From positions 1,662,001 to 1,726,000 of the forward strand of contig NZ_CP041402.1 in assembly GCF_007018905.1 (NCBI RefSeq): a DNA stretch of 64,000 nt, read 5' to 3'. Both the position numbers and the translations under genes were made by a program. The notes under the pieces are model-generated. The model was not told where the DNA came from. It was given only the letters and a program-made list of their open reading frames with translations, and ran no database searches. Origin of the DNA: Tardiphaga sp. vice304 (lineage in GTDB: Bacteria > Pseudomonadota > Alphaproteobacteria > Rhizobiales > Xanthobacteraceae). The first letter of the stretch is position 1. Each line of letters opens with the position of its first letter. This document shows positions 20,059 to 47,688 of the stretch, piece by piece.

Positions 20059-21213
20059 TCACAACCAGCTTGGAGCAGGTCCACCACCGGCGGCGACCGA
20101 AACGGAGGCGCCGCGGGGGCCGATGCCCGGGCCTTCGCGCTGAAGATTGGTGCAATAGGCGAAGGACATGTTGCGGTCGCGGTCGCACCAGGCGAAAGCG
20201 CCACCGGTGCCGGTGTGGCCAAACGCTTTCGGATTAGACCCCATTGGCGCCGTCTCCGGCTCATTGTGCATGAAGCCGTACCCCATGCGCAGCCGCCGCC
20301 GCGTCATGATACAATCGTTGTCCCAGACCAGTTGCGACGCGCGCTCGACGGCCTCGGCCGAGAGCAGCCGGACGCCATCGATTTCGCCGTCGCCGGCCAG
20401 CATGGCATAGACCCGAGCGATGGCGCGTGCATTGCCGTGGCCGCCGAACGAAGGCATTTCAATCTCGCGCAGCTCGCGGATGTTTTGAAAGTAGCCTTTC
20501 GGCCCCGATCTGAACGCGCGCGACAGCGGGGTGGTGGGATCTCCGGCAATCTGGAAGAAGCCGTTCTTCGGGTTCTCGTGCATATCGGAGACGCGCGCTA
20601 TTTCGTCAGGTTGCAGGCCGATCTGATAATCAACGCCGAGTGGGCGTGTGACCTCCTCGCGCCAGAACTTGCCGATGCTTTTGCCCGTGGTGCGGCGGAC
20701 CAGCTCACCGAGCAGGAATCCGATATTGACGGAGTTATAGGCGCCGCCGGTGCCGGGCTGCCATGCCGGCTCCTGCACCTCCAGCGCCTTGACATGGGCA
20801 TTCCAGTCGAACCAGGAACCTGCGGGCGCAGCGTCGGAAAAGATCACGCCGTCGGTGTGCGACAGCACATGACGCACCAGCACGGCTTCCTTTCCAGCTT
20901 GCGCGAATTCCGGCCAGTAGTTGGCAACCGGTTCATCGAAGCCGATCACGCCCCGGTCAATCAGCATATGGACGCAAAGCGCCGACATGCTCTTCGACAC
21001 GGAGTTCATGATCACGATCGTATCCTTGTCCCACGGCAGCTGCTTCTGCCGGTCGACGTAGCCGCCCCACAGGTCGACGACCTTTTCGCCATCCTTGTAG
21101 ACGCAGACCGACGAGCCGATCTCGCCGCGGTGCTCGAAATTGTCTTCGAAGGCGCGGCGCACCGCTGCGAAGTCGGGATTGCACGTCCCTTCAATTCGAA
21201 TTTGATCAGACAT
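20059..21213 (-). CDS. Beta-lactamase-fold serine hydrolase (EstB/class C-like esterase)
   Basis: A 384-residue penicillin-binding-protein-fold hydrolase. The catalytic SxxK is SVSK at about 70-73 (NSVSKSM), the second motif Y-x-N appears as YNSVN near residue 160, and GHTGTGG near 345 stands for the KTG/HTG box. Such proteins act as esterases, amidases or D-amino-acid peptidases. No signal peptide is visible, so it is probably cytoplasmic. The last about 15 residues (SVSVAAGGGPAPSWL) are unlike the family and may reflect an altered 3' end. It follows the TctC/Bug receptor by 24 bases and is likely co-transcribed with it. Confidence 0.85.
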   Translation of the reverse strand: MSDQIRIEGTCNPDFAAVRRAFEDNFEHRGEIGSSVCVYKDGEKVVDLWGGYVDRQKQLPWDKDTIVIMNSVSKSMSALCVHMLIDRGVIGFDEPVANYWPEFAQAGKEAVLVRHVLSHTDGVIFSDAAPAGSWFDWNAHVKALEVQEPAWQPGTGGAYNSVNIGFLLGELVRRTTGKSIGKFWREEVTRPLGVDYQIGLQPDEIARVSDMHENPKNGFFQIAGDPTTPLSRAFRSGPKGYFQNIRELREIEMPSFGGHGNARAIARVYAMLAGDGEIDGVRLLSAEAVERASQLVWDNDCIMTRRRLRMGYGFMHNEPETAPMGSNPKAFGHTGTGGAFAWCDRDRNMSFAYCTNLQREGPGIGPRGASVSVAAGGGPAPSWL

Positions 21214-21237
21214 CAGGCGCCTCGCTCGTTCTGGAGA

Positions 21238-22227
21238 TCAGTTGCCGCTGGTGGCGAGCTTCTCGCTCGCGACCACGTCTTTCCAGCGGGCAAACTCGGC
21301 TTTCACCAACACATTCGCGGCCTCCGACGAAAGCTGGTCGTCGGGAAAGGCCTCCACACCGTTCTGGGTATAGATGGCCTTCACCTTCGGATCGGCCAGC
21401 GTTTCGCGCAGCGCGCGATTGAGGCGCTCAACGATCGGCTTCGGCGTGCCGGCTGGCGCGAACAATGCCTGCCAGAACTGGATTTCGAGCTTCGGATAGC
21501 CGGCTTCGCCGAAGGTCGGAACGTCCGGCTGCGGAGGATGGCGGCGCGGTGCGCCGAAGCCGAACGCCCGGATCTTGCCGGCCTCGATCAGAGGAGCCGC
21601 TGTCGACGGGGCGGCCCAGACCAGGTCGGCATGTCCGCCGACAATGTCGTTCATCGCCTGGCCGCCGCCGCGATAGCTGATGAGCGTTGCGTCGGCGCCG
21701 GCCGCCTTCGAAAACAGCACGGCCTGCAAATGCGCCACGCTGCCGATCCCCGGATGCGCGAATTTCACTGGCTTGCCCGGCCCCTTCATCCACGTCACGA
21801 GCTCGCTGACGGTCTTGGCCGGGATGTCCGGGCGGCCGACGAGGAACGAGTACGACACGTTGACCATACCGATCGCCGTGAGATCCTTCAGCACGTCGAT
21901 CGATGCGCTGGGGTTGAGCAGTGCCGATATCAACAGGCCGTTCTGGTTGATCAGCAATGTGTAGCCATCAGGTGCAGCGCGGGCGGCGCGTGTGGTTCCC
22001 GCAAGACCGCCGGCCCCTGCGACATTTTCGATGACGATGGTCTGGCCAAGCGACTGCGACAGGCGATCGCTGATCGACCGAATGGCAATGTCGCTCGGCC
22101 CGCCTGCTGCATAAGGCGAGATCACGGTGATCGGGCGCGTCGGATAATCCTGCGCCGGAGCTGATCCCGCGCCAAGCATCAGCGTAAGCCCCAACACGCC
22201 GGTCATCCAACCCGATCGTTTGCGCAT
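21238..22227 (-). CDS. Bug/TctC-type periplasmic solute-binding receptor
   Basis: A 329-residue binding protein of the tripartite tricarboxylate transporter family. The signal peptide ends near residue 25 (GAGSAPAQ-DYP). The family signatures are YPTRPITVISPYAAGG, IVIENVAGAGG and the PDGYTLL segment. These receptors usually bind dicarboxylates, aromatic acids or amidated acids. No TctA or TctB permease gene is in the window, so it is an orphan receptor like two others here. It is the first gene of a two-gene minus unit with the serine hydrolase and is divergent from an ABC importer operon. Confidence 0.92.
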   Translation of the reverse strand: MRKRSGWMTGVLGLTLMLGAGSAPAQDYPTRPITVISPYAAGGPSDIAIRSISDRLSQSLGQTIVIENVAGAGGLAGTTRAARAAPDGYTLLINQNGLLISALLNPSASIDVLKDLTAIGMVNVSYSFLVGRPDIPAKTVSELVTWMKGPGKPVKFAHPGIGSVAHLQAVLFSKAAGADATLISYRGGGQAMNDIVGGHADLVWAAPSTAAPLIEAGKIRAFGFGAPRRHPPQPDVPTFGEAGYPKLEIQFWQALFAPAGTPKPIVERLNRALRETLADPKVKAIYTQNGVEAFPDDQLSSEAANVLVKAEFARWKDVVASEKLATSGN

Positions 22228-22278
22228 TTCGTTTCCTCTCGTTTTTCAGTCGCGGCGCCAGCGCTGTTTTGTTTTCTG

Positions 22279-22326
22279 CTGCACTGCATCACGCATGTGC
22301 GAACTTGCGTTCACGCTGCAGTGCAG
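22279..22326. promoter_or_regulatory. Long-range inverted repeat CTGCACTGCA in divergent promoter
   Basis: CTGCACTGCA (22279-22288) and its perfect complement TGCAGTGCAG (22317-22326) are 28 bases apart in the 352-base gap between the receptor gene and the ABC operon. It may be a split operator or a stem-loop in the receptor leader. Confidence 0.4.
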
Positions 22327-22357
22327 TTGCACCGCTAGCATGTTTCAGATTCATTCC

Positions 22358-22380
22358 GCCGATACTTTTTTGAGATCGAT
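22358..22380. promoter_or_regulatory. LysR-type site, half-conserved copy of the 29762 box
   Basis: GCCGATAC followed by 7 bases and AGATCGAT. The left half is identical to that of the perfect LysR box at 29762-29784, the spacing is the same, and T-N11-A is kept. It lies about 200 bases upstream of the ABC importer operon. Confidence 0.45.
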
Positions 22381-22579
22381 TGCTTTCAATAATTGTATTG
22401 GATTGGCGTCGAGCCGTGCTCCTAGTGTCGAGGCAATGAGCTCACCGGCCGCCGGACTTCACGCCATGCTTCAGCGTATCGCTGTTCCATCTAAGCGGCC
22501 GATCGCGACATGCCATCGGCGCTCAAATAGTTGAAAGAAGCACGCTGTGACCCTTCATTTGCGAGCCAAAGGATCCACC

Positions 22580-23410
22580 ATGCCGACGACCGGGACCAAG
22601 CCTTCGGCCCGTCCGATGATCCGCATCGATCATGTCGACAAGGTATTCACTACGGTCGCGAACGAACGGATCACGGCGCTTAGCGATATCTCGATGGACG
22701 TTGCCGAGGGTGAGTTCATCACCATCGTAGGGCCGTCCGGCTGCGGCAAGAGCACGCTGTTGAAGATCATGGCCGGACTGCAACCGGCGACGTCAGGTGC
22801 GGTCGAAATCGACGGCTCGCCGGTCACATCGCCTCGCCGCGATATCGGCGTCATGTTCCAGAACCCCATCCTGTTTCCGTGGCGCAGTGTAATCCAGAAC
22901 GTCATGCTGCCGGCGGAAGTGCAGGGGATGGACATGACGGCCGCGCGCGTGCGGGCGAAGATGCTGCTGGAAATGGTCGGCCTGGCCGAATTCGAGAATA
23001 AATATCCCAAGGAACTGTCGGGCGGCATGCAGCAGCGCGCCGCCATTAGTCGAGCGCTGCTGAACGATCCACGCACCCTGTTGATGGACGAACCATTCGG
23101 CGCACTCGACGCGATGACGCGCGAGCAGATGAATCTCGAACTGCAGCGAATCTGGGGCGAGAGTCGCAAGACCGTCGTGCTCATCACGCATTCGATTGCG
23201 GAGGCCGTCTTCCTCGCCGATCGCGTGCTCGTGCTGAGCGCGCGTCCAGGCCGCATCGCGCGGATCATCGATGTCCACATTCCACGGCCTCGCGCCATGG
23301 CCGTTCTCAGCGATCCGGAATTCGGCCGGATCTGCGGCGACATCCGCCAACTGCTTTACGGCCTTGAAGGCGGTGTCGATCTGTCCGCCACGACGGGAGG
23401 ACTCTCATGA
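22580..23410 (+). CDS. ABC importer ATPase (SsuB/TauB/NrtD type)
   Basis: A 276-residue nucleotide-binding subunit of an NMT1/SsuA-type importer, working at the inner membrane with the permease at 23407. Walker A GPSGCGKST is at 51-59, the Q loop at Q94, the signature LSGGMQQ at 146-152 and Walker B LLMDEP at 167-172; the D-loop FGALD follows. The ATG at 22580 with AAAGGA upstream is preferred to a GTG 33 bases earlier. It overlaps the permease by 4 bases. The matching binding protein is at 26730, separated by two enzyme genes, so substrate uptake and breakdown are probably co-expressed. Confidence 0.92.
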   Translation: MPTTGTKPSARPMIRIDHVDKVFTTVANERITALSDISMDVAEGEFITIVGPSGCGKSTLLKIMAGLQPATSGAVEIDGSPVTSPRRDIGVMFQNPILFPWRSVIQNVMLPAEVQGMDMTAARVRAKMLLEMVGLAEFENKYPKELSGGMQQRAAISRALLNDPRTLLMDEPFGALDAMTREQMNLELQRIWGESRKTVVLITHSIAEAVFLADRVLVLSARPGRIARIIDVHIPRPRAMAVLSDPEFGRICGDIRQLLYGLEGGVDLSATTGGLS

Positions 23411-24273
23411 CCGCCACCGACTTGCCGACCCACGTCGTCACCCCGGTCAGGCTCGTCTCCCGCGCGAAGATGATGGCCGCCCAGCGCCCCGAATTAATCA
23501 TTGCGCCGGTATCACTGGTGCTGCTGCTGCTTGGCTGGGAGTGGAGCGTCAATGCCTTCGACGTGCCGAGCTACATTCTGCCGCCGCCAAGCCAGATCTG
23601 GACCGCGCTGGTGCGGGGCCTGAATTATGGCCTGAACGATCGCGGCGGATATTGGCTGCACGCACGGGTGACGCTGACGCAGGTGCTGCTCGGGTTCTTC
23701 TTCGGCAGCGGCGCCGGGCTGTTGCTTGGCACCATCATCAGCCAGTTCCGGTTGCTCGAGGCGACGCTGCGCGTTTATCTGATCGCGATCCAAAGCCTAC
23801 CAAAGATCGCCTTGGCGCCGATTGTGGTGATGTGGTTCGGCTTTGGCGTGACGTCGAAGGTTGTGATCATCGCCCTGCTGACTTTCTTTCCGCTACTGGT
23901 CACTAGCCTCGCCGGTTTCCGCGCCGTCGACCGCGAGCGGCTTGAGCTGATGAGGGCCCTCGGCGCCGGCTCATGGATGATTTTCTGGAAAGTTCGCGTG
24001 CCGTCCGCGCTTCCGTTTATTTTCGCCGGCCTGGAGATGGCATCGGTGTTTTCCATCGTCGGCGCCGTGGTCGGCGAGTTCGTCGGGGCTCAGCAGGGCT
24101 TGGGCACGCTGATCCTGTCGATGACGGCGCAGATGGACATGTCGGGTACCTTCTCGGTTTTCATCATTCTGTCGCTGATCGGCATCGGCATGCATGCCGG
24201 TCTGCGCGCGATCCAGAAGCGCGTGCTGTTCTGGTCGGAGACCGAAGCCACGGACGTCACGCCGGGCGCGTGA
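23407..24273 (+). CDS. ABC importer permease (SsuC/TauC type)
   Basis: A 288-residue inner-membrane permease of the binding-protein-dependent family. The first membrane segment is at about 32-50 (LIIAPVSLVLLLLGWEW), with further segments through the middle. The EAA-type loop with the conserved glycine lies near LMRALGAGSWMIFWKVRVPSALP (about 178-200), contacting the ATPase. Overlap with the ATPase gene (ATGA) and 34 bases to the hydrolase gene indicate one operon. The substrate cannot be read from the sequence; relatives carry sulfonates, nitrate, pyrimidine precursors or aromatic acids. Confidence 0.92.
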   Translation: MTATDLPTHVVTPVRLVSRAKMMAAQRPELIIAPVSLVLLLLGWEWSVNAFDVPSYILPPPSQIWTALVRGLNYGLNDRGGYWLHARVTLTQVLLGFFFGSGAGLLLGTIISQFRLLEATLRVYLIAIQSLPKIALAPIVVMWFGFGVTSKVVIIALLTFFPLLVTSLAGFRAVDRERLELMRALGAGSWMIFWKVRVPSALPFIFAGLEMASVFSIVGAVVGEFVGAQQGLGTLILSMTAQMDMSGTFSVFIILSLIGIGMHAGLRAIQKRVLFWSETEATDVTPGA

Positions 24274-24307
24274 CGTCGGGAAAATCAACAAGAAAACAAT
24301 CTAGGGA

Positions 24308-25498
24308 ATGTCCATGCTGCAAAACGATCCGGCCTTTCTGTTCTTTCCCGAGAGTTATCGGTGGTCGACCGGGCTGTTGCTCTGTCTCGGTGGCGCGCCA
24401 TGGGGTGGCGCGGAGATCAACGAAGTCCATCGCGTCGGCACGGCCCTGCGCGACAAGGTTGGCGACGACCAGGCCTGGTTCGACGAATGGACCAGGATGG
24501 GCGAGAAGGTCGAGGCGCGCGGCCGGGCGGCCATGGCGCGCGGAAAGACCGTCACAGCCATCTCTTGCCTGCTGCGTGCCAGCCATTATTACCAGACCGG
24601 CGAGCGTTTCCTGCATCCGAAGTCGGAGCGCGGCTCCAAGATTTATCATCGGTCGGTGCAGGCTTTTCGCGACGCGGCCGGCATGATGACGCGTCCACGG
24701 ATCGAATTCGTCGAGGTGCCCTATGAAGGCAAGTCGCTGCCCGCGATCCTGGTTCATCCGGATCAGGACGTGGCCCGGGGCAAGCCGGCACCGGCGATGG
24801 TGTTCTTCGACGGCTTCGACGTCACCAAGGAGTTGCAGTATTTCTTCGGCGTTGCCGATCTCGCGGCGCAAGGCGTCGGCTGTCTGATCGTCGATGGCCC
24901 CGGCAACGGCGAGAGCGTGCGTTTCCGTGACCTGCCGCTGATTGCCGAAACCGAACGTTACGGGACGGCGGCCTACGAGTATCTGGCCGCCCGGCCGGAA
25001 TTCGATGCCAAGCGGATCGGCGTGATGGCGATCAGCCTGGGTGGCTATTACGCGCCGCGCGCAGCCTCGCTGGAACCGCGCTACGCCGCGTGCATCGCCT
25101 GGGGCGCGCAGTGGGATTATCACGACACCTGGAAGCGCCGGTTCGAACTGCTCGACTCCGGCAAGCTGCCGTCGCTGTCGGTGCCGCCGGAGCATCTCGC
25201 CTGGGTGATGGGCACGCAGACGCGCGACGAGGCGATGCAGAAGCTGGAAGGCTTCAAGCTCGACGGCATCGTTCAGAAGATGCGGTGCCCATTCCTGATG
25301 CTGCACGGTGCGCACGACCAGCAAATCCCGCTCGAGCTGGCTCAGAAATGCTTCGACGCCGTGGGGTCGGAAAACAAGACCATGATGGTGTTCAAAGCCG
25401 AGGAGGGCGGCCACCATCATTGCCAGGTCGATGATCTCTCGCTGGGCGTCTACTCCATGTGGGACTGGGTCACCGACGTGCTCAGGCCGGGCACCTGA
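24308..25498 (+). CDS. DUF1100/FrsA-like alpha/beta hydrolase (C-C hydrolase-like)
   Basis: A 396-residue alpha/beta hydrolase with a long helical N-terminal part (residues 1-130), as in 2,6-dihydroxypseudo-oxynicotine hydrolase and polyketide-type C-C hydrolases. The nucleophile is S243 in AISLGG, the acid is D337 (LHGAHDQ), and the base is one of H369-H371 (EGGHHH); the oxyanion region is FFDGFD. It should act in the cytoplasm on a side chain carrying a ketone, ester or amide. It is the third gene of the ABC operon. It is a distant paralogue of the two hydrolases at 41217 and 46465, which share a different N-terminal motif. Confidence 0.85.
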   Translation: MSMLQNDPAFLFFPESYRWSTGLLLCLGGAPWGGAEINEVHRVGTALRDKVGDDQAWFDEWTRMGEKVEARGRAAMARGKTVTAISCLLRASHYYQTGERFLHPKSERGSKIYHRSVQAFRDAAGMMTRPRIEFVEVPYEGKSLPAILVHPDQDVARGKPAPAMVFFDGFDVTKELQYFFGVADLAAQGVGCLIVDGPGNGESVRFRDLPLIAETERYGTAAYEYLAARPEFDAKRIGVMAISLGGYYAPRAASLEPRYAACIAWGAQWDYHDTWKRRFELLDSGKLPSLSVPPEHLAWVMGTQTRDEAMQKLEGFKLDGIVQKMRCPFLMLHGAHDQQIPLELAQKCFDAVGSENKTMMVFKAEEGGHHHCQVDDLSLGVYSMWDWVTDVLRPGT

Positions 25499-25500
25499 AC

Positions 25501-26700
25501 ATGACCGCCGACGCGATCTTTCCGCGCTTCAGCGACGCCGAGTACCGCCGTCGCTATGCGGCGGTGCGAGCGGAGATGGCGAAGCGCGGCATCGATGCAG
25601 TGATCGCCGCGGGCGACTCGGCGTTCCGGTTTTCGAACCACGCCAACGTACAATGGCTGACCAATTGGCTCGATCCCTATGCCGCTTATGCGGTAATCAC
25701 GCTGGAGCAGGATCCCATCCTGGTGATTTCCAATCCGCTGTACCTGCACACGGCGCGGCGGGCCTCGGTCGCGACGGAGATCCACGGCGTCTATACGCCC
25801 GGCAAGACGATGGGCGAGCGCCTGACTGAACTTGGTCTCGGGAGCGGTACGATTGGCCTAGCCGGCGTCCGTAACGTTGGACGAGCGTCGATGGCATTCG
25901 AGCATCAACGCGATCTGACGGCTGCGATGCCGAACGCCCTCTTCGTCGACGCGCTGGACGTCATGCAGGAGGCGCGGCGGATCAAGAGCGCGGAGGAGAT
26001 CGGCTGGTTCGAGAAAGGTGCGGAGTATACCGATCGAGCAGTAATGGCCATTGACGGCAGCCTGCGCGAGGACATGCCGGAGTTCGAGCTCTCGGCGCGC
26101 ATCCAGGAATCGTTCCTCGACGATGGCGGCTCGCTGATGTTTCATTTTCTCGGCGCAACGCCGATGACGGCGCCCGAGCTGATCTTTCCCTGGCAGTACC
26201 CCTCGACGCGCCGGACCCGCGCCGGCGATGTTCTCCTGACCGAGATCAGCGTCGGCCATTGGGGATATGCCGGGCAGGTGCAGCGCGCCTATACCGTGAA
26301 CGCGGCCCCGACTGCCGCCTTCCAGCGCCTGCATGACACCGCCGTCGAGTGCTATCAGCGCATATTCGAGGCTTTGAAGCCGGGAGCATCGGAACGCGAC
26401 ATTCTGGACGCGGCGCGCTTCGTTGAGCGACAGGGCTACAAGACGCTCGACGTCCTGATCCACGGCTGGGGTATCACCATTGAGCCGCCGCGCGCTGATC
26501 TGTCCTGCGCCATGATCAAGCGCGAGTGCCTGCCGTTCACCGTCGAGGAAGGCATGCTGTTCGTCATCCAGCCGCATATCGTCTCAGGTGACGAGACCTG
26601 CGGCGTCCAGGTCGGCAATCTCGTTTGCGTCGACGGCGACGGAGCGCGGTCGCTGCAGAAGGCGCCCATGGATTTTTTCAGATCGCGAAGCGCATCCTAG
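25501..26700 (+). CDS. M24 family (creatinase/Xaa-Pro peptidase-like) protein with altered metal site
   Basis: A 399-residue pita-bread-fold protein: a creatinase N-domain over about 15-150, then an M24 domain. In metal-dependent M24 enzymes the ligands are D, D, H, E, E. Here the first region reads TEISVGHWGYAGQVQRAY, without the usual aspartate pair. The histidine (IHGWGIT) and one glutamate (FTVEEGM) remain, and the last ligand is glutamine (CGVQVGN). This pattern fits metal-free members such as creatinase, so hydrolysis of an amidine or amide is more likely than dipeptide cleavage; that is inference. The ATG follows the hydrolase stop by 2 bases. Confidence 0.85.
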   Translation: MTADAIFPRFSDAEYRRRYAAVRAEMAKRGIDAVIAAGDSAFRFSNHANVQWLTNWLDPYAAYAVITLEQDPILVISNPLYLHTARRASVATEIHGVYTPGKTMGERLTELGLGSGTIGLAGVRNVGRASMAFEHQRDLTAAMPNALFVDALDVMQEARRIKSAEEIGWFEKGAEYTDRAVMAIDGSLREDMPEFELSARIQESFLDDGGSLMFHFLGATPMTAPELIFPWQYPSTRRTRAGDVLLTEISVGHWGYAGQVQRAYTVNAAPTAAFQRLHDTAVECYQRIFEALKPGASERDILDAARFVERQGYKTLDVLIHGWGITIEPPRADLSCAMIKRECLPFTVEEGMLFVIQPHIVSGDETCGVQVGNLVCVDGDGARSLQKAPMDFFRSRSAS

Positions 26701-26729
26701 AAGAAACACAAAAGCTGCCGGAGGATTCC

Positions 26730-27815
26730 ATGCTGACGAGACGTGCTTTTACCGCTTCACTGGCTTCGGTCGGTGTTACCATGTTGTCGGTTCATCAGAG
26801 CCGCGGTCAGAGTCTGCCGACCATCCGCCTCGGCAATGCCGCCGGAATCGTCGACCCCCAGCTCATCTTCATGACGATGGGCCAGCACCCCAAGATCGAC
26901 TATTACAAACAGGAAGGCTGCGCGCTCGACATCATCAACATGAGCGGCTCGGGCCAGACCATGCAGGCGATCATCGCTGGCCATGTGGAGACCTCGTCGC
27001 TCGCTCCGATCGCTTATCTTCCGGTTTTTGCCAAAAATCCCAATGTGGACGTGGTCTACGTCTATGCCTGGCTGCGTTCGCCGCATTGGGGCGTTGCCGT
27101 CAAGCCGGACAGTGCGATCAAATCTCTGCAGGACCTCAAGGGCAAGAATATCGGTATCCGCAACAAGGGCGATACCGGCTATTTCGGCGCCGTCGGCATG
27201 CTGAAGGAAATCGGCATCGACCCCGACAAGGACGTCGAGTGGATCTCGGTCGATCAGGGCGGCCCGGCCGGCGATGCGCTGTATCGCGGTCGCGTCGACG
27301 CCATGGCGTTCTGGGACGGCGGTTTCGCGCGCATGGAGACCGCGGGCTTCAAGCTCCGTTATCTGCCGAACTCGCCGGGAATGCAGCAGTTGTTCGGGCA
27401 GGCCTATTGCGTCCGCCGCTCGGACTTCAAGAAGAATCGTGACGTCTATGTTCGCTTCTTTCGCGCCATGGCGAAGTCGACGGTGTTCGCTTATGCCGAC
27501 ACCGATCTGGCCATCAAGCTGCACTGGGACCTCTATCCGGAGACCAAGCCCAAGGGTAAGACCGACCAGGAAGCGATGGCCGAGGCACGTGTGGTGGTGA
27601 ACAGCCGCCGCGAAAAGTGGATGCCGGCGCCGTGGCAGGCCGACAAACGCTTCGGAGCGATGAATGCCGACGAGTGGCGAGCCCAACTCAAGTTTCTCGG
27701 ACTCGAAGGCACGGTCCCCAGCGTCGATCCGATCTTCACCGCCGACATCCTCGACGACGTCAACAATTTCGACCGCGACAAGGTGCTGGCGCTGGTCAAG
27801 ACGCTGAGCAGTTGA
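26730..27815 (+). CDS. ABC substrate-binding protein (NMT1/SsuA type), Tat-type leader
   Basis: A 361-residue periplasmic receptor. The N-terminus MLTRRAFTASLASVG with an arginine pair resembles a twin-arginine signal ending near GQS. The body has the NMT1/THI5-like layout: a GSGQTMQAIIAGHVE segment, and LQDLKGKNIGIRNKGDTG for the ligand-binding loop. The ATG at 26730 has GGAG 8 bases upstream and lies 29 bases after the M24 gene. It should deliver substrate to the permease/ATPase pair at 22580-24273. It overlaps the next gene by 1 base. Confidence 0.9.
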   Translation: MLTRRAFTASLASVGVTMLSVHQSRGQSLPTIRLGNAAGIVDPQLIFMTMGQHPKIDYYKQEGCALDIINMSGSGQTMQAIIAGHVETSSLAPIAYLPVFAKNPNVDVVYVYAWLRSPHWGVAVKPDSAIKSLQDLKGKNIGIRNKGDTGYFGAVGMLKEIGIDPDKDVEWISVDQGGPAGDALYRGRVDAMAFWDGGFARMETAGFKLRYLPNSPGMQQLFGQAYCVRRSDFKKNRDVYVRFFRAMAKSTVFAYADTDLAIKLHWDLYPETKPKGKTDQEAMAEARVVVNSRREKWMPAPWQADKRFGAMNADEWRAQLKFLGLEGTVPSVDPIFTADILDDVNNFDRDKVLALVKTLSS

Positions 27816-40334: not shown

Positions 40335-40955
40335 TCAGAAGCTCGGCGGTGTGTTCACGACGATGAACTTTGCCGGCTTGCCGCTCGAATTCTTGTAGCC
40401 GTGCGGAATCTCGGAGCGATAGCAGATCGAATCACCGGTGTTGAGCAGGTACTTGGCGTCACCGATGATCAGTTCGACCTGCCCTTCGATGATATAGGCG
40501 ACTTCCTCGCCCTCGTGCGTCACCAGCCCTCCGCCGCTGCCGCCGGGGGCGAGGTTGTGGATGCTGCCCTGCAACAGGCGGGCCTTGTCGTAAGGGATCA
40601 AACGCTCCAGCGTCAGCCCCGGTCCGCTGCGCAGCGGATCCGTCTTGACGATCGGCCGCTCGCCGGCCCTCGACAGAAGCCCGTCGGGCTCGGACGGTTT
40701 TTCGAATAGCTGGCCCACCGTCAGTTCCAGTACCTCGGCGATCCGGTAAAGCGCGTTGAGCGACGGCACAGCGCGGCCGTTCTCGATCTTGGAGATCATG
40801 CTTTCCGAACAATCGGCGGCCTCGGCGACGTCCTTGAGGCGCAACCCCTTGGTCATCCGGCCGTGGCGCAGACGCACCCCCAGATATTCGTTGTTTCCAG
40901 CGGGCACGGCGGCCGGCTTCTGCTTCGAGGAGGGCCGCTTCTTCGTCTTCAACAT
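40335..40955 (-). CDS. XRE-cupin regulator (HipB/PuuR-like)
   Basis: A 206-residue regulator. The helix-turn-helix covers about 26-80 (LRLKDVAEAADCSESMISKIENG), and the cupin domain about 130-206 (THEGEEVAYIIEGQVELIIG, then GDSICYRSEIPHGYKN). PuuR and similar proteins use the cupin to sense a small catabolite. It is divergent from the hydrolase-BtrH-ABC operon, and copies of one palindrome flank the gene on both sides: at 41119 (own and operon promoter) and 40303 (Bug/LVIVD unit). It is probably the repressor of this half of the island. Confidence 0.92.
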   Translation of the reverse strand: MLKTKKRPSSKQKPAAVPAGNNEYLGVRLRHGRMTKGLRLKDVAEAADCSESMISKIENGRAVPSLNALYRIAEVLELTVGQLFEKPSEPDGLLSRAGERPIVKTDPLRSGPGLTLERLIPYDKARLLQGSIHNLAPGGSGGGLVTHEGEEVAYIIEGQVELIIGDAKYLLNTGDSICYRSEIPHGYKNSSGKPAKFIVVNTPPSF

Positions 40956-41118
40956 CTAAAATCCAAATCGTGAGCCAAGCGAGCGCCTACGTTCCATCAC
41001 TGAAACTTTGACGACAACTGCGATCATATCGCAACCCCGAACACCCGCCGCGCTTCATGGCACACACGTGCTCAGAAAGTAATCGGGCTTGCTCAATGAG
41101 AAAGCAAAAAGGAACTGA

Positions 41119-41135
41119 ATTCAAATGACTTGAAT
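41119..41135. promoter_or_regulatory. 17-bp palindrome, candidate XRE-cupin operator, copy 2
   Basis: ATTCAAATGACTTGAAT in the 261-base gap between the XRE-cupin gene and the hydrolase operon; its left and right neighbours extend the symmetry by one base. It is shared with copy 1 except for the centre. Confidence 0.65.
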
Positions 41136-41216
41136 TAAAAATTTCACGCTGTTAGCTTTTCCGGATCAGCTCCCGGAGCGGAGCATTGCTGCAAGCCGTA
41201 CTTGGGAAGGAAGCGG

Positions 41217-42443
41217 ATGTCCGAAGAGTTCCTCATCGATCAGGTCACCAACGAAACGCACGGTGTGTATCAGCCCTATGGCTGGCACCACTGGCCGCAG
41301 TTTCCCTGGATGAGCTATCAGTTCCGGCGCGCCCTCGGCGAGACGCAGGAGGGCGGTGGCGCGGTGTCGGAGTGCTTCCTGGCCGCCAGCCGGATGATCC
41401 CGGGCGACGAGGAGAGCTGGCACCGCGAGTGGAAGCGGATTGCCGACTTCAACCAGGAGCGCGGTGATTCCGAGTTCGGCAAAGGCCATGTGCGCACGGC
41501 GATGAATTGCTGGCTGCGCGCGGCCAATTATTATCGTCACACCGAGTTCTGGCTCAAATACACCGATCCGCGCCGAATCGAAGCCTTCACCGACATGGAG
41601 GAGTGTTCTCGAAAATTCATTTCGAACCTCAATCCCGCGGGCGAAGTCCTGCAGATACCCTACGAGAACGACAAAACCCTGTTTGCGTATTTTGTCCGTG
41701 CGCCGTTCGATACCGGCAAGCAGCCGGCTCTGATCTGCATGGGGGGCCTTGACTCGATCAAAGACGAAATGTGGTTCATGCAGGCGCACGGCGCCCTGCA
41801 GCGCGGCATCTCGGTGCTGATGATCGACGGCCCGGGGCAGGGCGGCACGTTACGCCGGCACGGCTTGCCGACCCGCGTCGACTACGAAGTCCCGATCGGC
41901 AAGTGCATCGATTACCTGCTAACCCGCGACGACGTCGACCCGGCGCGCATCGCGGTGTGCGGTTCGTCGCTCGGCGGCTTCTACGCGGCGCGCGCCGGAT
42001 CCTACGAACATCGCCTGGCGGCAGCGATTTCGCACGGCGCGATCTGGTCGATCTCGGAGTTGTGGGCCAATGCGACCGAGACGCATGGCCTTGCTGATCA
42101 CATCAAGACCGTGTTCGGCGCGTCTTCGATGAAGGAGGCGCTGGAAAAGGCCCGGCCGTTCACGCTCGAAGGCCACCTCGAGAATATGAAATGCCCATAC
42201 CTGATCGTTCACGGCGGCCATGACGTGCTCGGCGTGGCGCAGGCTTCGCGGGTCTACGATTATGCCAGGGCCAAGGGCGTCAATGCGACCTTGCGTCTGG
42301 TGACCGAAGAGGAAACCGGTGCCGACCACTGCCAGCACGACAACCCGACCATCGGGCAGGAACTGATGGCCGACTGGCTCGCCGGTGTGTTCGGTATCGA
42401 CGAACGCGAATTGCGCAAGAAAGCCACCAATCCCTTGATTTGA
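41217..42443 (+). CDS. DUF1100-type alpha/beta hydrolase 2
   Basis: A 408-residue hydrolase with a helical N-terminal half carrying YGWHHWPQFPW and FRRALGETQEGGG, then an alpha/beta core. The nucleophile is S251 (CGSSLGG), the acid D336 (HGGHDVLG) and the base H371 (GADHCQHD). It closely matches the gene at 46465, less so that at 24308. Relatives cleave C-C bonds next to a ketone or hydrolyse amides. The ATG at 41217 is preferred over a TTG 15 bases upstream because AAGGAAG is then correctly placed. It is the first gene of a six-gene operon: hydrolase, BtrH-like, binding protein, ATPase, permease, hydrolase. Confidence 0.88.
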   Translation: MSEEFLIDQVTNETHGVYQPYGWHHWPQFPWMSYQFRRALGETQEGGGAVSECFLAASRMIPGDEESWHREWKRIADFNQERGDSEFGKGHVRTAMNCWLRAANYYRHTEFWLKYTDPRRIEAFTDMEECSRKFISNLNPAGEVLQIPYENDKTLFAYFVRAPFDTGKQPALICMGGLDSIKDEMWFMQAHGALQRGISVLMIDGPGQGGTLRRHGLPTRVDYEVPIGKCIDYLLTRDDVDPARIAVCGSSLGGFYAARAGSYEHRLAAAISHGAIWSISELWANATETHGLADHIKTVFGASSMKEALEKARPFTLEGHLENMKCPYLIVHGGHDVLGVAQASRVYDYARAKGVNATLRLVTEEETGADHCQHDNPTIGQELMADWLAGVFGIDERELRKKATNPLI

Positions 42444-42470
42444 TCCAAACCGCCTCGAAAGGAGATCGCG

Positions 42471-43715
42471 ATGTCCGAAGTGAAGTCCTATGGCGACGCC
42501 TACTACTCGATGACCTGGATGGGACCGAAAGGGTATCCCGAAGGCGGCAATTCGGGCCGCTGTTATTTCACCGGCATGTTGGGAATGCTCCGGCTGCACG
42601 GCGAGAGCGACGTGCTGTTTGCGGACGGCACGTCGGGCGACGGCTTTTCGTTTCGCTGGAGCCCGGTATGGGGCGCGCCTGCGTTCAACGGCGGCGCAGG
42701 GGCCTTCCATGAAATCTGGGAATATACGCCGAAGGCGCTCGGCTACGTCGGGCACTGGGAGCAGGACCATGAGGGGGGCTTCGACGAGGCCTTCACCAAG
42801 CTCTGTGGTCTGGTCGATCGCGGCATTCCGGTCCAGGTCGGGCTGCATTATTCGCTGATGCTGCCTTATGGCGCCAAGACGTCGCCGCGGCTTAAATTCC
42901 AGCATGAGACGATGGGCAAGACCGGGTTTGGTCACCACGTCGTGGTCGCCGGTTACGATTTGCAACGTGGCACGGTCACGATCTTCGAACCCAACGATAT
43001 CTTACCGCACTCGCGCTACGAAGCGCCGATCGACGTGTTTCGCGCCGCATGGGAGCAGTCGATGCAGCGCGGGCCGAAGGGCTACGAGCCCTGGGAACAT
43101 CACCACCCGTTCGGCGGCGAGTGGAGTTTGCATGACGGCTATGGCCCATACCTGATGGTCTGGGTCGAGCCCGAGCGTGATCCGCACTGGGACATCACGC
43201 AATCGATCCGGCATTCGTTCCGGCGTAACCTCAAGATCCTGTCCGGGGAGTATCCGAAGCCCTATGCGCTGTTTGGCAACCAGTGGCAGATCCCGCGCTT
43301 CGAGACCGGCGCGCCTGGCATGGCGGCCTTCGCGGCCCTGGTCGTCAGCGGCGCGGTGAAGGATACCAATGGGCCCAATGGCGCAACGATCCCGCTGTTC
43401 GTGCGCGGCAACATTCCGAACCACGGCGTGCTTGGCCGGGCAGGCGCTGCCGGCTATCTCCGGCGTGTCGCCGCAGAACTGGGCGTGCGCGGCCTGGCGA
43501 ATGCCGACGTGCTTGCTGCGGCACAGGAAATGCAAGCATCTTCGGAGTTGTTCAAGACGCTTCGCTACGAGGCAGACCTCGCCAAGGCCGGTGAAGTGCT
43601 GTCACGGATCGCAGCGCATGAGGTGGCCGCGCTGGCATCCATGACCAAAGCATGGCCGGTGGTGCAGACGATTACGGAACATGCGCCGTCGCGACAGGAC
43701 GTTGCGGCGGAGTAG
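42471..43715 (+). CDS. BtrH-like protein (butirosin acyltransferase N-domain family)
   Basis: A 414-residue protein. The first 200 residues resemble the BtrH_N fold, a cysteine-protease-like acyltransferase: C31 in SGRCYFTGMLGML, then LFADGTSGDGFSFRW, GFGHHVVVAGYD with candidate histidines, and the acidic EPND end of the catalytic strand. The C-terminal half (about 240-410) resembles the DUF4872 partner domain. BtrH moves an acyl group to an aminoglycoside; in this catabolic setting the reverse reaction, deacylation or transamidation, is conceivable. The assignment rests on motif pattern only, so the fold is moderately sure and the reaction unknown. It lies 27 bases after the hydrolase. Confidence 0.6.
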   Translation: MSEVKSYGDAYYSMTWMGPKGYPEGGNSGRCYFTGMLGMLRLHGESDVLFADGTSGDGFSFRWSPVWGAPAFNGGAGAFHEIWEYTPKALGYVGHWEQDHEGGFDEAFTKLCGLVDRGIPVQVGLHYSLMLPYGAKTSPRLKFQHETMGKTGFGHHVVVAGYDLQRGTVTIFEPNDILPHSRYEAPIDVFRAAWEQSMQRGPKGYEPWEHHHPFGGEWSLHDGYGPYLMVWVEPERDPHWDITQSIRHSFRRNLKILSGEYPKPYALFGNQWQIPRFETGAPGMAAFAALVVSGAVKDTNGPNGATIPLFVRGNIPNHGVLGRAGAAGYLRRVAAELGVRGLANADVLAAAQEMQASSELFKTLRYEADLAKAGEVLSRIAAHEVAALASMTKAWPVVQTITEHAPSRQDVAAE

Positions 43716-43783
43716 CCGGGCGGCTGCTTCGCAAGGATTTAGTAATTCGCTCGGTGAGCGTCAATGCATATTGCCAGGGGATC

Positions 43784-44776
43784 ATGACGATGACGTTGAA
43801 GAGTGTATTACTCGGCTTCTGCGCCTGCATCGCGTTGGCCGGCAGCGCCGCGGCGCAGCAGGACAATTACAAGGTCCGCGTCGTTGCCGGGGCCCCGGGA
43901 TACGACCACATCCAGCCGTTCATCGCGGAACACCTCAAGCTGTGGGATAAGTACGGCGTCAAGGTCGAGTTCATGGGCGGGAATTATCAGCGTTCCAACC
44001 AGCAGATGTCGATCGGTGATTTCGACGTCGGTTATAACCAGTACGCATCCTCGATCCGCTATCTTTCCGCCGGCATCGATAGCGTCATCGTCGCCGCGTC
44101 ATCCGCCAATTGCGCGATGATGATTGCCGGACCGAACGTCAAATCGTGGGCCGACGTCAAGGGCAAGCGCGTCGGCATCGTCACCAAGTTCGACGTGCAG
44201 GCGCTGACCCTGACCAAGCAGATCCTGCCGCGTTTCGGGCTCTCCGAAAAAGATGTGCAACTGGCGCTCGTTCCGGTACCGGAGGTCGCATCTGCTTTGC
44301 TTACCGGCGACATTGCCGCCGCGTTCCCGTTCGAGCCCTACGGCACCGACGCGCTCGGGAAGGGTGCCAAGCTGCTTCTGGCGCCGAACGACCTGATCGA
44401 CAAGACCAAGCTGGATTCGGACATGCTGCGAAACGGCATGATCATGACCCGCAAGTTTATCAAGGAGCATCCTGAACTCGCCAAACGCCTTGTGTGGGCG
44501 CATCTCGACGCCGTGCACTTGATGAAGACCGACAAGAAGACGGGTCTCGAGGTCCTGAAGCATTACACGCCGAACATCGACATCTCGCTCCTCGACAAGT
44601 CGTATGACAGTTGCGGCTGGCAATATAACGAGCCGCCGAAAGCCTGGATCGAAGCGTTGATCGGCTGGATGAAAGAGGACGGCCTGCTGCAGAAGCCCGT
44701 CACCTACCAGGACGCCGTCGATATGTCGCTGGCCGAGAAATATCCGGGTTATCCCGGCTACGAAAAGCTCAAGTGA
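43784..44776 (+). CDS. ABC substrate-binding protein (NMT1/SsuA type) 2
   Basis: A 330-residue periplasmic receptor with leader LLGFCACIALAGSAAA-QQ. The mature part has the expected order: VVAGAPGYDHIQPF, the DFDVGYNQYASSI ligand loop and WADVKGKRVGIVTKFD. The ATG at 43784 is chosen so that the leader is complete. The stop overlaps the ATPase GTG start by 3 bases. It differs clearly from the receptor at 26730 (non-Tat leader, different loops), so the two importers probably bind different, perhaps related, compounds. Confidence 0.9.
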   Translation: MTMTLKSVLLGFCACIALAGSAAAQQDNYKVRVVAGAPGYDHIQPFIAEHLKLWDKYGVKVEFMGGNYQRSNQQMSIGDFDVGYNQYASSIRYLSAGIDSVIVAASSANCAMMIAGPNVKSWADVKGKRVGIVTKFDVQALTLTKQILPRFGLSEKDVQLALVPVPEVASALLTGDIAAAFPFEPYGTDALGKGAKLLLAPNDLIDKTKLDSDMLRNGMIMTRKFIKEHPELAKRLVWAHLDAVHLMKTDKKTGLEVLKHYTPNIDISLLDKSYDSCGWQYNEPPKAWIEALIGWMKEDGLLQKPVTYQDAVDMSLAEKYPGYPGYEKLK

Positions 44777-45585
44777 GCCGCTCGGACATGGTGATCATCA
44801 AATCGCTGAGCAAGAAGTACACGTCGCAGGGTGCGGACATGGCCGCGCTGATCGACATCAATCTGGAGATCCAGGAAGGCGAGTTCGTCTGCCTTCTCGG
44901 TCCCTCCGGCTGCGGCAAGTCGACCTTGCTAAAGATCGTCGCCGGCCTCATTCCCGCAACATCCGGGGAGGTGGCCATCAATGGCCAGGCGATCGACGGC
45001 CCCGGTCCCGAGCGGGCCGTCGTGTTTCAGGACTACGCGCTGTTTCCCTGGATGAGCGTCCGCGACAACATCGAATTCGGGCTGGAAGCGCGCCGGATGG
45101 CGGCGGCCGAACGAAGAAAGATTTCCGACAAATTGCTGCGGGTTGTGGGCCTTGCCGATTTCGCAGATCGATATCCACACCATCTGTCGGGCGGCATGAA
45201 ACAGCGGGTCTCGATCGCGCGCGCGCTCGCCGTTGATCCGTCGCTGTTGCTGATGGACGAGCCGTTCGGCGCGCTCGACGCTCAGACGCGCCAGACGCTG
45301 CAGGACGAACTGCTGCGCATCTGGCGCGAATACCGCAAGACCGTGATCTTCGTGACCCATTCTATCGAAGAGGCGATCTACTTGTCCGACCGTATCGTGG
45401 TCATGACGGCACGGCCGGGGCGCATCAAGGAAGTCATCGCGATCAGTGAACCGCGGCCGCGCGACATGACCGGCACGGCGATGAACGAGCGGCAGCGCGA
45501 GGTCCGCGCCGTGCTCAACGAGGAAATCGAGCGCGCGGCTGTCCTCGAGCAACGGGACATGATGGTCGGAGCATCCCATGGCTGA
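44773..45585 (+). CDS. ABC importer ATPase 2 (SsuB/TauB type)
   Basis: A 270-residue ATPase. Walker A GPSGCGKST is at 43-51, the signature LSGGMKQR about 138-145 and Walker B LLLMDEP about 159-165, followed by FGALDAQTR. It starts at a GTG overlapping the binding-protein stop (GTGA); an ATG 15 bases later is possible. It overlaps the permease by 8 bases. Full motifs indicate an active importer subunit. Confidence 0.92.
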   Translation: MSRSDMVIIKSLSKKYTSQGADMAALIDINLEIQEGEFVCLLGPSGCGKSTLLKIVAGLIPATSGEVAINGQAIDGPGPERAVVFQDYALFPWMSVRDNIEFGLEARRMAAAERRKISDKLLRVVGLADFADRYPHHLSGGMKQRVSIARALAVDPSLLLMDEPFGALDAQTRQTLQDELLRIWREYRKTVIFVTHSIEEAIYLSDRIVVMTARPGRIKEVIAISEPRPRDMTGTAMNERQREVRAVLNEEIERAAVLEQRDMMVGASHG

Positions 45586-46417
45586 TTTATCGTACAACAA
45601 AGCCAGCGAGGCCGGTGCCACTCTTGCCGCGTCTAGGATTCTGGGCCGGATGGTGCCGGGCCGCGACCGGCTGCTGGGTATCTCCACCATGGTCGTCTTC
45701 ATCGCCGGATGGGAGATTGTCTACCGGCTCGGTCTGATGCCGGTGTGGGCGTTCCCATCGCCCTGGAAGGTCGTTCTCGCGTTTCAGGAATTGATCGCCA
45801 ACGGCAAGCTGCTGACCAACACCGCGGCCAGCGTCGGCCGGCAGGTCACTGGCGTCTTGCTGGCCGCGCTGGTCGGCATTCCCGCCGGCCTGGCGCTGGG
45901 CGCATCACCGACCGCGCGCGCGGCGTTTCTTCCGCTGTGCCGGCTGCTTTATCCGATCCCGGGTATCGCCTGGATTCCGCTCTCCATCCTCTGGTTCGGG
46001 GTCGGCTTCAAATCTACGGTTTTCGTTATCTTCTTCTCCGGCGTCTGGTCGATCATGTTCAACACCATGACCGGGGTGCAAACGCTGAGCGGCCAGTACA
46101 CCGACGTCGCCCGCGTCTATCTGGCGTCGCGCAGGTTATATACCTGGCGCATCCTCATTCCGGGATCGCTGCCCTACATCATCACCGGCATGCGGCTCAC
46201 CTACGGCGTAGGCTGGCGCGTCATCGTCGGCGCGGAAATGATCTCGTCCATCACCGGGCTCGGCTTCCTGATCGACGACGCGCGCTGGCAGCTGCGGCCG
46301 GACATCATGATCACCGGCATGATCACCATCGCGATGATCGGCTGGGTCTCGGAGAACTGGTTCTTCGACTGGGTCGAGCGCCGGACGATCGAGAAGTGGG
46401 GCATGAAGACGACCTAG
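45578..46417 (+). CDS. ABC importer permease 2
   Basis: A 279-residue inner-membrane permease with about six membrane segments, the first near 35-55 (STMVVFIAGWEIVYRLGLM). The EAA-like loop is degenerate: YLASRRLYTWRILIPGSLPYIITGMRL at about 180-208. It pairs with the ATPase at 44773 and the receptor at 43784. It is followed 47 bases later by a DUF1100-type hydrolase, keeping transport and hydrolysis in one operon as in the first importer operon. Confidence 0.92.
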   Translation: MADLSYNKASEAGATLAASRILGRMVPGRDRLLGISTMVVFIAGWEIVYRLGLMPVWAFPSPWKVVLAFQELIANGKLLTNTAASVGRQVTGVLLAALVGIPAGLALGASPTARAAFLPLCRLLYPIPGIAWIPLSILWFGVGFKSTVFVIFFSGVWSIMFNTMTGVQTLSGQYTDVARVYLASRRLYTWRILIPGSLPYIITGMRLTYGVGWRVIVGAEMISSITGLGFLIDDARWQLRPDIMITGMITIAMIGWVSENWFFDWVERRTIEKWGMKTT

Positions 46418-46464
46418 CCTCGAAGTTTCACCTTTCATTGCCATCCAACGATTCGAGCATCTGC

Positions 46465-47688
46465 ATGACCAGCGCCAGCGCCGCCGAGAAGAAACTGATC
46501 GACTCCGAAGTGGTGGACGAACACGCCCATTACGAGCCTTATGGCTGGCACCACTGGCCGAAATATCCCTGGCCGTCCTATCAGTTCCGGCGTTCGCTGG
46601 GCGAGACGCAGGAGGGCGGTGGAACGGTTTCGGAGAGTTTTCTGGCGGCGAGCCGGATGATCCCTGGCAACTACGATAGCTGGCACAATGAATGGATGAT
46701 CGTGGCCAACGCCAGCATGGCGCGTGGCGAACAGGCCGAGGCCTATGGCCATATTCAGACCGCGATGAACTGCTATCTGCGCGCGGCCGATATGTATCGT
46801 TCGGCCGAATTCTGGCTCGATCCCGCCGATCCCCGCCGACTACCGACGTTCGATAAGTGTGAGGCCGCCACTCATCGCTTCATGAACTGGACGGTGCCAA
46901 AGGGCGAGATCGTCGAGATTCCCTACGAGCCCGGCATGCCGATGACGGGCTATTTCTTTCGTTCGCCGTTCGGTGACGGCAAGCAGCCGGTGCTGATTTC
47001 GTTCGGCGGCCTCGACTCCTTTAAGGATGAGCTGTGGTTCATGACCGGCCGCGGTGCCCTGCAGCGCGGTATCTCGGTGTTGCTGATGGACGGGCCGGGG
47101 CAGGGCGCAACCCTGCGCCGCTACGGGCTGGTCACGCGTTACGACTACGAGGTGCCGGTCGGCAAATGTATCGACTGGCTGGAGCTGCGGGACGACGTCG
47201 ATCCCGGCCGCATCGCAGTCTCCGGGTCGTCGTTCGGTGGCTATCACGCCGCACGGGCCGGCTGCATGGAGCCCCGCCTGGCGGCGGCGATTTCGCACGG
47301 CGGCGTGCTCAGCCTCTATGATCGCTACAAGGACCGCGCCGAGGATCACGGCCTCGCTGGTCACATGAAGTGGGTGTTCGGCGCCGACACGATGAAAGGC
47401 GTTGCGGAGAAGACCCGCAATTTTGACCTGCGCGGCGCGTTCGAAAACATGAAGTGTCCTTATCTGATCCTGCACGGTGGACACGACGTGCTGGGCGTCG
47501 AAGCCGCCAAGGAGGGGTATCAATACGCCAAATCTGTCGGCGTCGATGTGACCTTCATTCTGGTGGAGGCGGATACGACCGGCGCCGAGCACTGCCAGCA
47601 CGACAATCCGACACTGGGCCAGGAACTCATGCTGGACTGGCTGGCCGACAAATTCGGCATAGATCAGCACGGCCTCATCAAGACCTGA
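46465..47688 (+). CDS. DUF1100-type alpha/beta hydrolase 3
   Basis: A 407-residue paralogue of the gene at 41217, with the shared N-terminal YEPYGWHHWPKYPW and FRRSLGETQEGGG, nucleophile S256 (SGSSFGG), acid in HGGHDVLG and base in GAEHCQHD. The open frame extends far upstream into the permease gene, but the ATG at 46465 gives the family-like N-terminus. It closes the six-gene operon. Two near-identical hydrolases bracketing one importer suggest stepwise cleavage of a repetitive or two-sided substrate, which is inference. Confidence 0.88.
   Translation: MTSASAAEKKLIDSEVVDEHAHYEPYGWHHWPKYPWPSYQFRRSLGETQEGGGTVSESFLAASRMIPGNYDSWHNEWMIVANASMARGEQAEAYGHIQTAMNCYLRAADMYRSAEFWLDPADPRRLPTFDKCEAATHRFMNWTVPKGEIVEIPYEPGMPMTGYFFRSPFGDGKQPVLISFGGLDSFKDELWFMTGRGALQRGISVLLMDGPGQGATLRRYGLVTRYDYEVPVGKCIDWLELRDDVDPGRIAVSGSSFGGYHAARAGCMEPRLAAAISHGGVLSLYDRYKDRAEDHGLAGHMKWVFGADTMKGVAEKTRNFDLRGAFENMKCPYLILHGGHDVLGVEAAKEGYQYAKSVGVDVTFILVEADTTGAEHCQHDNPTLGQELMLDWLADKFGIDQHGLIKT

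Follow-up and report, generated by a model that had tools for sequence, protein, structure and literature searches.

Two putative catabolic gene modules side by side in Tardiphaga sp. vice304

We analyzed a 64,000-nucleotide stretch of the genome of Tardiphaga sp. vice304 (hereafter the window; bases 1,662,001 to 1,726,000 of a 5.79-Mb single-contig genome), in which positions 20059 to 47688 carry genes for hydrolase-type enzymes together with uptake systems. This region is best read as two modules, A (20059 to 36340) and B (37573 to 47688), which occur separately in other genomes. According to our model, to which we assign a probability of roughly 0.58, these are two catabolic modules lying side by side, and module B imports and hydrolyzes one small organic compound.

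Within 20059 to 47688, 23 genes were called. All of them were scanned against Pfam, and 19 were searched against NCBIfam or the PDB. Every called gene had a Pfam match at an E value of 0.001 or better, that of the BtrH-like gene lying under its curated cut-off. These searches bore out the gene content and coordinates of a first-pass annotation, which had described nine hydrolase-type enzymes (three CocE/NonD, three FrsA-type, one with a beta-lactamase fold, one M24 and one BtrH-like cysteine enzyme). The companions it listed were also present: an ornithine-cyclodeaminase/mu-crystallin-type protein (OCD), a quinone reductase, an LVIVD protein, two ABC importers, three Bug receptors and two regulators. 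Its general theme of import and hydrolysis is likewise supported. Sequence and predicted fold also make the LVIVD protein a candidate for a tenth hydrolase. Several gene starts were moved inward, namely those of frs3 (to about 46465, not 45709), the OCD gene (27815) and the genes for the NMT1-type receptors (26730 and 43784).

Module B is a conserved gene group

In module B, the gene for an Xre-cupin (PuuR-like) regulator (40335 to 40955, minus strand; PF07883, PF13560) is divergent from an operon on the plus strand. The operon comprises frs2, encoding a serine hydrolase like FrsA and 2,6-dihydroxy-pseudo-oxynicotine (DHPON) hydrolase (41217 to 42443), the BtrH-like cysteine enzyme gene (42471 to 43715), and the genes for an NMT1/SsuA-type substrate-binding protein (43784 to 44776; PF09084, with TIGR01728 below its cut-off), an ABC importer ATPase (44788 to 45585; PF00005, E 6e-35) and its permease (45578 to 46417; PF00528). 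It ends with frs3, for another DHPON-hydrolase/FrsA-like enzyme (about 46465 to 47688, the listed open reading frame [ORF] starting at 45709; PF06500). On the minus strand, the module also includes the LVIVD seven-bladed propeller gene (37573 to 39099) and Bug receptor 3 (39148 to 40131; PF03401).

The full order, with the Xre-cupin gene on one side and frs2, the BtrH-like gene, receptor, ATPase, permease and frs3 on the other, was found in Bradyrhizobium lablabi, Aquabacter spiritensis and two further Aquabacter genomes; in the loci of these last two the permease match was absorbed by the long frs3 frame. One metagenome-assembled genome (MAG), G021, has the same order spread over two contigs, and another, L018, has a partial module consisting of the regulator, frs2 and the BtrH-like gene. 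Across these relatives the regulator, which stands beside frs2 in B. lablabi, the two MAGs and the three Aquabacter genomes, is 54 to 72% identical, and the remaining genes are 67 to 89% identical (frs2, 86 to 89% in relatives with a full copy). These genes thus do co-locate elsewhere; a failure to do so had been named beforehand as an outcome that would speak against the first-pass annotation. Judging by titles and abstract openings in the partial literature coverage available to us, no precedent for module B is apparent.

The immediate surroundings bear on uptake. In L018, an MFS gene stands in the importer's place and is followed by the LVIVD gene, an Amidohydro_2 protein and a PuuE-like deacetylase (PuuE score under cut-off). 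In B. lablabi, the LVIVD row (L144) reads Bug, deacetylase, MFS, LVIVD; its Bug is 71% identical to Bug receptor 3 and its MFS protein is 78% identical to that of L018. The deacetylase also adjoins the regulator in loci L016 and L017. Since the same slot is held by an ABC importer in some genomes and by an MFS carrier in another, the arrangement argues for uptake. Bug receptor 3, described in the first-pass annotation as an orphan, seems to belong with the LVIVD protein; the stretches from the two Aquabacter genomes, A. spiritensis and G021 showed no such Bug gene next to LVIVD. The amidohydrolase has relatives at 64 to 65% identity in G035 and G076, and we rejected it as a fixed part of module B because the best match in the genome of vice304 itself reaches only 36%. 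In G021, a Rieske-domain protein adjoins LVIVD (L083 11-1255; G021:C296); the hydrolases may be preceded or followed by an oxygenase.

The LVIVD gene is coupled to the BtrH-like gene

Of all the genes, LVIVD is the one best coupled to the BtrH-like gene. We sought close BtrH-like genes in 149 related genomes and in that of vice304 at a cut-off of E 1e-10. Apart from the own genome, four of the 149 relatives carried one (77 to 86% identity), and nothing weaker appeared at that threshold. LVIVD genes at 80 to 84% identity were found in the own genome and in the same four relatives; weaker relatives (37 to 42%) occurred in two more genomes, G025 and G068. Two further genomes, B. lablabi and an alphaproteobacterial MAG, were reached only via the BtrH-like gene, and both carry LVIVD at 82 to 83% identity. 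A close LVIVD gene was therefore present in seven of seven genomes in which a close BtrH-like gene was met. In an order sample of 397 genomes, LVIVD at E 1e-100 was confined to the own genome (0 of 396 others), and so was the BtrH-like family in a phylum sample of 398 (0 of 397 others). Neither gene was found in 17 same-genus genomes. LVIVD and the third Bug receptor had been listed as bystanders; LVIVD shows this coupling, and that Bug goes with LVIVD in B. lablabi.

Several points weigh against giving this pairing its full face value. LVIVD is linked to module B in three genomes, the own, L018 and G021 (where locus L114 has it next to frs3 and the importer genes), and plain linkage explains the pairing in these. 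It could also do so in A. spiritensis, where LVIVD stops 0.9 kb short of the end of contig C1 and C8 opens with module B, each on the minus strand; the two contig ends could adjoin, with the order as in G021, and share no sequence overlap. Unlinked pairs were seen in three genomes, two of them of one genus: in G076 the two genes are about 310 kb apart, whereas in G035 and B. lablabi LVIVD lies on another contig, 51 kb and 20 kb from its end, respectively. The naive chance of a four-of-four match (5e-8) ignores linkage and kinship, is far too small and is not to be used. Beyond linkage, the pairing is thus backed by three genomes belonging to two genera, with a background of 0 in 396.

The BtrH-like protein had no match in 72,556 plasmid records and no confirmed match among viral contigs, and a phage or plasmid home for its gene was rejected on these grounds. 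Relatives of LVIVD do occur on plasmids, in 105 records, all under 60% identity. Of three such loci examined, L133 lies close to an ABC importer and a GntR gene rather than to module B, and the other two carried no annotation. As a separate observation, the longest contig given for one BtrH-like protein (P0014) and for one LVIVD protein (P0136) has the same length, 25109 bases, and the two may share one metagenome contig.

The LVIVD protein is related to a propeller phosphotriesterase

The predicted model of the LVIVD protein is all-beta, with a predicted local distance difference test (pLDDT) score of 86.8. Its top Foldseek matches were the phosphotriesterase of Sphingobium sp. TCM1 (Sb-PTE, a haloalkylphosphorus hydrolase; PDB 5HRM, 5IOJ), with E values of 5e-16 and 2e-15, the next other match standing at 7.5e-8. 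A profile comparison with Sb-PTE gave an E value of 2e-8, and one hhalign comparison against Sb-PTE relatives from plasmids gave a probability of 98.5%. By profile, Foldseek and hhalign, the LVIVD protein falls among the homologues of Sb-PTE with a seven-bladed propeller, and we conclude from sequence and model that it is such a homologue. The Sb-PTE structure paper, cited in PMC11656708, mentions in its title a binuclear metal center in a seven-bladed propeller. The two proteins share 15 to 16% identity in the fold alignment, and they keep different gene company.

At the residue level, Sb-PTE His389 and Glu407 align with His317 and Glu341 of the LVIVD protein, and both are invariant in 30 of 30 aligned rows. 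The metal ligands of Sb-PTE are E201, H258, H389, E407 and H475, and the relative L135 carries the same residues at these numbers. The five are not all conserved in the protein of the window: at the position of His475, all 10 rows of its clade (identity of at least 73%) have Arg, whereas the 20 other rows have His. E201 and H258 could not be placed securely. Because of this Arg at the His475 position, metal binding in the clade may be altered or lost.

The same clade carries Glu65, His318 and mostly His66 (9 of 10 rows). Its pore is thus remodelled, with E65, H318 and mostly H66 gained and His replaced by Arg at 395. The clade also differs at the N terminus. The word [ST]RRx[FL], as in twin-arginine signals, occurs in the first 60 residues of 16 of the 20 other rows, and, by the same motif reading, no clade row (0 of 10) has any RR there.

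The BtrH-like protein resembles acyl-handling cysteine enzymes in fold

In Pfam, the BtrH-like protein matched only C39_2, under its curated cut-off. Pfam BtrH_N (PF14399) had no match in the window protein and is given for 4 of 120 displayed relatives (P0022, P0066, P0105 and P0117); the NCBI name of the A. spiritensis relative is BtrH N-terminal domain protein. The model of the window protein reached a pLDDT of 76.7 (the other four models, 59 to 67), and its 15 best Foldseek matches were all AziU2/U3, CtaG or CcbD, with E values from 1.9e-8 to 2.8e-3, which places the predicted model in this fold. All 18 aligned rows share Cys31, His155, His156, Glu173, Asn175 and Asp176, and the invariant Cys31 and His155/156, followed by acidic residues, are features in which the protein is like AziU2/U3, CtaG and CcbD.

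The FrsA-type enzymes are closer to DHPON hydrolase

The first-pass annotation had assigned three hydrolases to the DUF1100/FrsA type. All three are present, and the two that were searched are nearer to DHPON hydrolase (PDB 2jbw) than to FrsA. It is the best solved relative of both, with similarity over most of the chain: frs1 of module A aligned over residues 48 to 395 (E 1e-28) and frs2 over residues 67 to 397 (E 1.7e-27), and frs3 is 61% identical to frs2. The catalytic roles in frs1 and frs2 presumably fall to Ser, Asp and His. FrsA esterase proper (PRK05077, cut-off 477) was ruled out, with only 40.7 and 36.5 bits for two of the three proteins. DHPON hydrolase belongs to nicotine breakdown; no other nicotine genes were noticed among the scanned ORFs of the window.

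Module A is a loosely assembled cluster

At its left end, module A has a beta-lactamase-fold carboxylesterase gene (20059 to 21213, minus strand; PF00144, E 2e-61). The protein is similar to solved carboxylesterases (PDB 5gkv, E 4e-71; 7y3z, E 2e-67) and has the SxxK motif as SVSK at residue 71, which places it in the family; its 203 bits do not reach the LipL equivalog cut-off of 650. Bug (TctC) receptor 1 (21238 to 22227, minus; PF03401, E 1e-56), which has a 64% relative in A. spiritensis (L099), adjoins the esterase gene both here and there.

On the plus strand follow an ABC importer ATPase (22580 to 23410; PF00005) and permease (23407 to 24273; PF00528), frs1 (24308 to 25498; PF06500), an M24 creatinase-like protein (25501 to 26700; PF00557, E 3e-20, and PF01321), an NMT1/SsuA-type substrate-binding protein (26730 to 27815; PF09084, E 1e-21) and the OCD protein (27815 to 28786; PF02423, E 1e-60). 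Compared by eye with the M24 motif, the M24 protein appears to lack several metal ligands, as creatinase does. The pairing of M24 and OCD genes resembles that of DoeA/EutD with EutC in ectoine utilization. The scores are far below the curated cut-offs (DoeA, 57.3 versus 575 bits; EutC, 142 versus 471.65 bits), and an ectoine pathway was ruled out.

A LysR regulator gene (28796 to 29728, minus; PF03466/PF00126) precedes three CocE/NonD hydrolase genes in tandem on the plus strand. The first (29924 to 31672; PF02129, PF08530) is 76% identical to its relative in L099. The second (31736 to 33493) is 64% identical to the first, and the third (33546 to 35252) is 48% identical to both. All three have the S15 and PepX_C domains and, at 225, 244 and 243 bits, exceed the TIGR00976 cut-off of 66.3. 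They are thus like the solved CocE/NonD hydrolases (PDB 3ib3, 1ju3) in both domains and differ from them in substrate and setting, with relatives in many genomes without the remaining genes. Bug receptor 2 (35351 to 36340, plus; PF03401, E 5e-51) closes the module. Between the modules lies a gene for a zinc-type quinone oxidoreductase (36420 to 37397, minus; PF00107/PF08240), assigned to neither of them, for which no relatives above 38% identity were found in the fetched loci searched.

The module A block was met in one other genome, A. spiritensis, which is also the only one of 149 relatives with the module A LysR at E 1e-60. There a single row (L099) carries the genes for LysR, the importer ATPase and permease, the NMT1-type receptor, OCD, CocE/NonD 1, Bug receptor 1 and the beta-lactamase-fold esterase, at 48 to 78% identity; M24 and frs1 were not seen in this row. 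Beside it (L099 1158-7409), the N termini of ORFs resemble, by eye, hydantoinase/oxoprolinase A and B and a class II aldolase.

Part of this distribution speaks against module A as a tight unit. CocE relatives at E 1e-60 were found in 31 of 150 genomes and frs1 relatives at E 1e-30 in 47 of 150, the own genome included in both counts, and frs1 relatives mostly stand without the rest of the module. We fetched 20 regions, 16 of them centered on CocE- or frs1-type matches. One of the 16 held the module A block (L099), one the importer, frs1 and OCD genes (L104), one frs1, CocE and Bug genes (L105) and one an frs1-type gene with an esterase and a CocE gene (L113). Apart from the relative of the query, the other 12 showed nothing beyond weak matches (27 to 47%) to Bug, ABC, LysR or quinone reductase. 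Likewise, eight fetched loci have frs1 at 61 to 73% identity, with importer genes and OCD beside it in one and a CocE gene in one. With CocE and frs1 relatives this common and the block present in 1 of these 16 regions, we regard module A as a genuine cluster, though a loose one.

The flanks and the genomic setting

Called genes (starts moved inward, some rounded) make up 94% of 20059 to 47688, whereas in the flanks the ORFs with Pfam matches, among a chosen set that was scanned, cover 56% on the left and 58% on the right. The first-pass annotation had contrasted a region free of pseudogenes with flanks full of them. By this coverage the flanks are indeed less densely coding, the pseudogenes in them being candidates.

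Insertion sequences (IS) stand on both sides of the region: an IS21-type element to the left of module A (istA and istB, 15626 to 17940, plus; PF22483, PF01695) and an IS3-type transposase orfB to the right of module B (47920 to 48759, minus; PF13683, PF00665, PF13276). Inverted repeats at 15432 to 18085 (36 nucleotides, 86%) enclose istA and istB and may mark the termini of this element; the inverted-repeat search gave nothing else decisive. Pfam matches also identified an integrase-like ORF (9755 to 11773) and a DDE transposase (60901 to 62541). This setting fits a variable stretch of the chromosome. The genome holds 41 TctC (Bug) genes, and three of them within 27 kb are therefore less striking than they sound.

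An empty insertion site was not located: the 95% Mrp relative in the same-genus genome G012 stands in another setting, and only 4164 to 6389 of the window matched an 80-kb stretch of G012 at more than 150 aligned bases. The gene concerned (4514 to 5770) encodes a second Mrp/NUBPL-type ATPase with a GBBH-like domain, which may be mobile; among 17 other same-genus genomes, only G012 has it at 95% identity, the others at 47 to 49%. Elsewhere in the left flank, a GH94-type ORF (7551 to 9410) starts at position 168 of the supersandwich profile and is probably the remnant of a longer gene. On the right, amine-oxidase-type and photolyase-like ORFs (51134 to 53295), with partial domains and overlapping frames, are possibly decayed genes, and a ChrR-like cupin protein beside a sigma-70-type factor (57504 to 58930) forms a complete-looking sigma/anti-sigma pair. 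Neither RNA families at gathering score nor tRNA genes were found in the window. Between 40000 and 48000, promoter-like sites numbered 5 versus 2.3 in shuffles, and terminator-like sites 10 versus 5.3; these counts were not used for conclusions.

Discussion

One alternative to our model is the proposal that the whole region is one functional island whose two modules degrade the same compound in sequence, as the first-pass annotation had it. The modules are adjacent here, and A. spiritensis, the single relative with the module A LysR, also has module B and LVIVD. One such co-occurrence, however, has a chance of about 4 in 149. Moreover, three of the four relatives with module B (G021, G035 and G076) lack that LysR at E 1e-60, and in A. 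spiritensis module A lies in mid-contig, 212 to 222 kb into the 386-kb contig C3, whereas module B is at the start of C8. One compound for the entire region is thus unlikely. Nor does direct evidence point to the earlier choice of substrate, a large nonribosomal peptide, polyketide or drug-like ester; both kinds of receptor present, NMT1/SsuA and TctC, are small-molecule ones.

A further alternative gives module B a biosynthetic or modifying role, in which the BtrH-like enzyme would acylate an imported small molecule and the hydrolases would tailor the product. The closest folds to that enzyme belong to proteins that handle amides or thioesters in natural-product pathways. Because the solved relatives are biosynthetic, the BtrH-like enzyme may by analogy build rather than break a bond, which would count against a catabolic module B. 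The fold likeness itself is also limited: TM-scores to AziU2/U3, CtaG and CcbD are only 0.30 to 0.49 by query length, for a model of moderate quality, and identities are 9 to 15%. On the other hand, the Pfam-scanned ORFs of the window include no carrier protein gene and no nonribosomal peptide synthetase, polyketide synthase or adenylation domain, and, unlike those proteins, the window protein stands with importer genes and hydrolase-type enzymes. We consider a biosynthetic module B improbable, somewhat more so than a single island. Finally, a chance pile of common accessory genes without shared function, which the flanking IS elements, the many TctC genes and the wide spread of CocE relatives would suit, is very improbable, and for module B already disfavoured, given module B blocks in six other genomes (one partial, one split over contigs), the module A block in one other genome and the pairing of LVIVD with the BtrH-like gene even where the two are unlinked.

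We therefore return to two catabolic modules side by side, for which we infer the direction, the bonds cut and the order of steps as follows. In module A, the NMT1-type ABC importer and two Bug receptors would bring in a small compound; the CocE/NonD enzymes, the carboxylesterase and the DHPON-hydrolase-like enzyme would cut esters or amides, the M24 and OCD proteins would handle a nitrogen-bearing part, and LysR would act as the controller. In module B, the Xre-cupin protein would sense the compound or its product and control the divergent operon. The ABC importer, or the MFS carrier in relatives, would take the compound in, the two DHPON-hydrolase-like serine hydrolases would cleave a ketone C-C bond or an ester bond, and the BtrH-like cysteine enzyme would cleave or transfer an acyl-amide bond. 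The LVIVD propeller would serve as a cytoplasmic metal-dependent hydrolase. Most notable among the new findings is module B itself, a rare gene set with a probable propeller hydrolase for a partner.

A bolder proposal, which we put forward only tentatively and consider less likely than not to hold in full, is that the LVIVD clade is a new family of cytoplasmic metallo-hydrolases. It would derive from a phosphotriesterase-type propeller, with a remodelled pore, and be the fixed partner of two C-C hydrolases and of a cysteine enzyme with the BtrH fold that breakdown has taken over from biosynthesis. The undescribed catabolic pathway would probably have spread by horizontal transfer, since module B is patchy, absent from 17 same-genus genomes and flanked by IS elements. 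Sb-PTE acts on organophosphate flame retardants, which humans began to make only recently (PMC11656708). Here, a family of Sb-PTE propeller relatives is tied to specific genes for import and hydrolysis, and in three genomes this holds without linkage. Such a tie would give a testable handle on the natural role of such propellers and on whether BtrH-type enzymes serve in breakdown.

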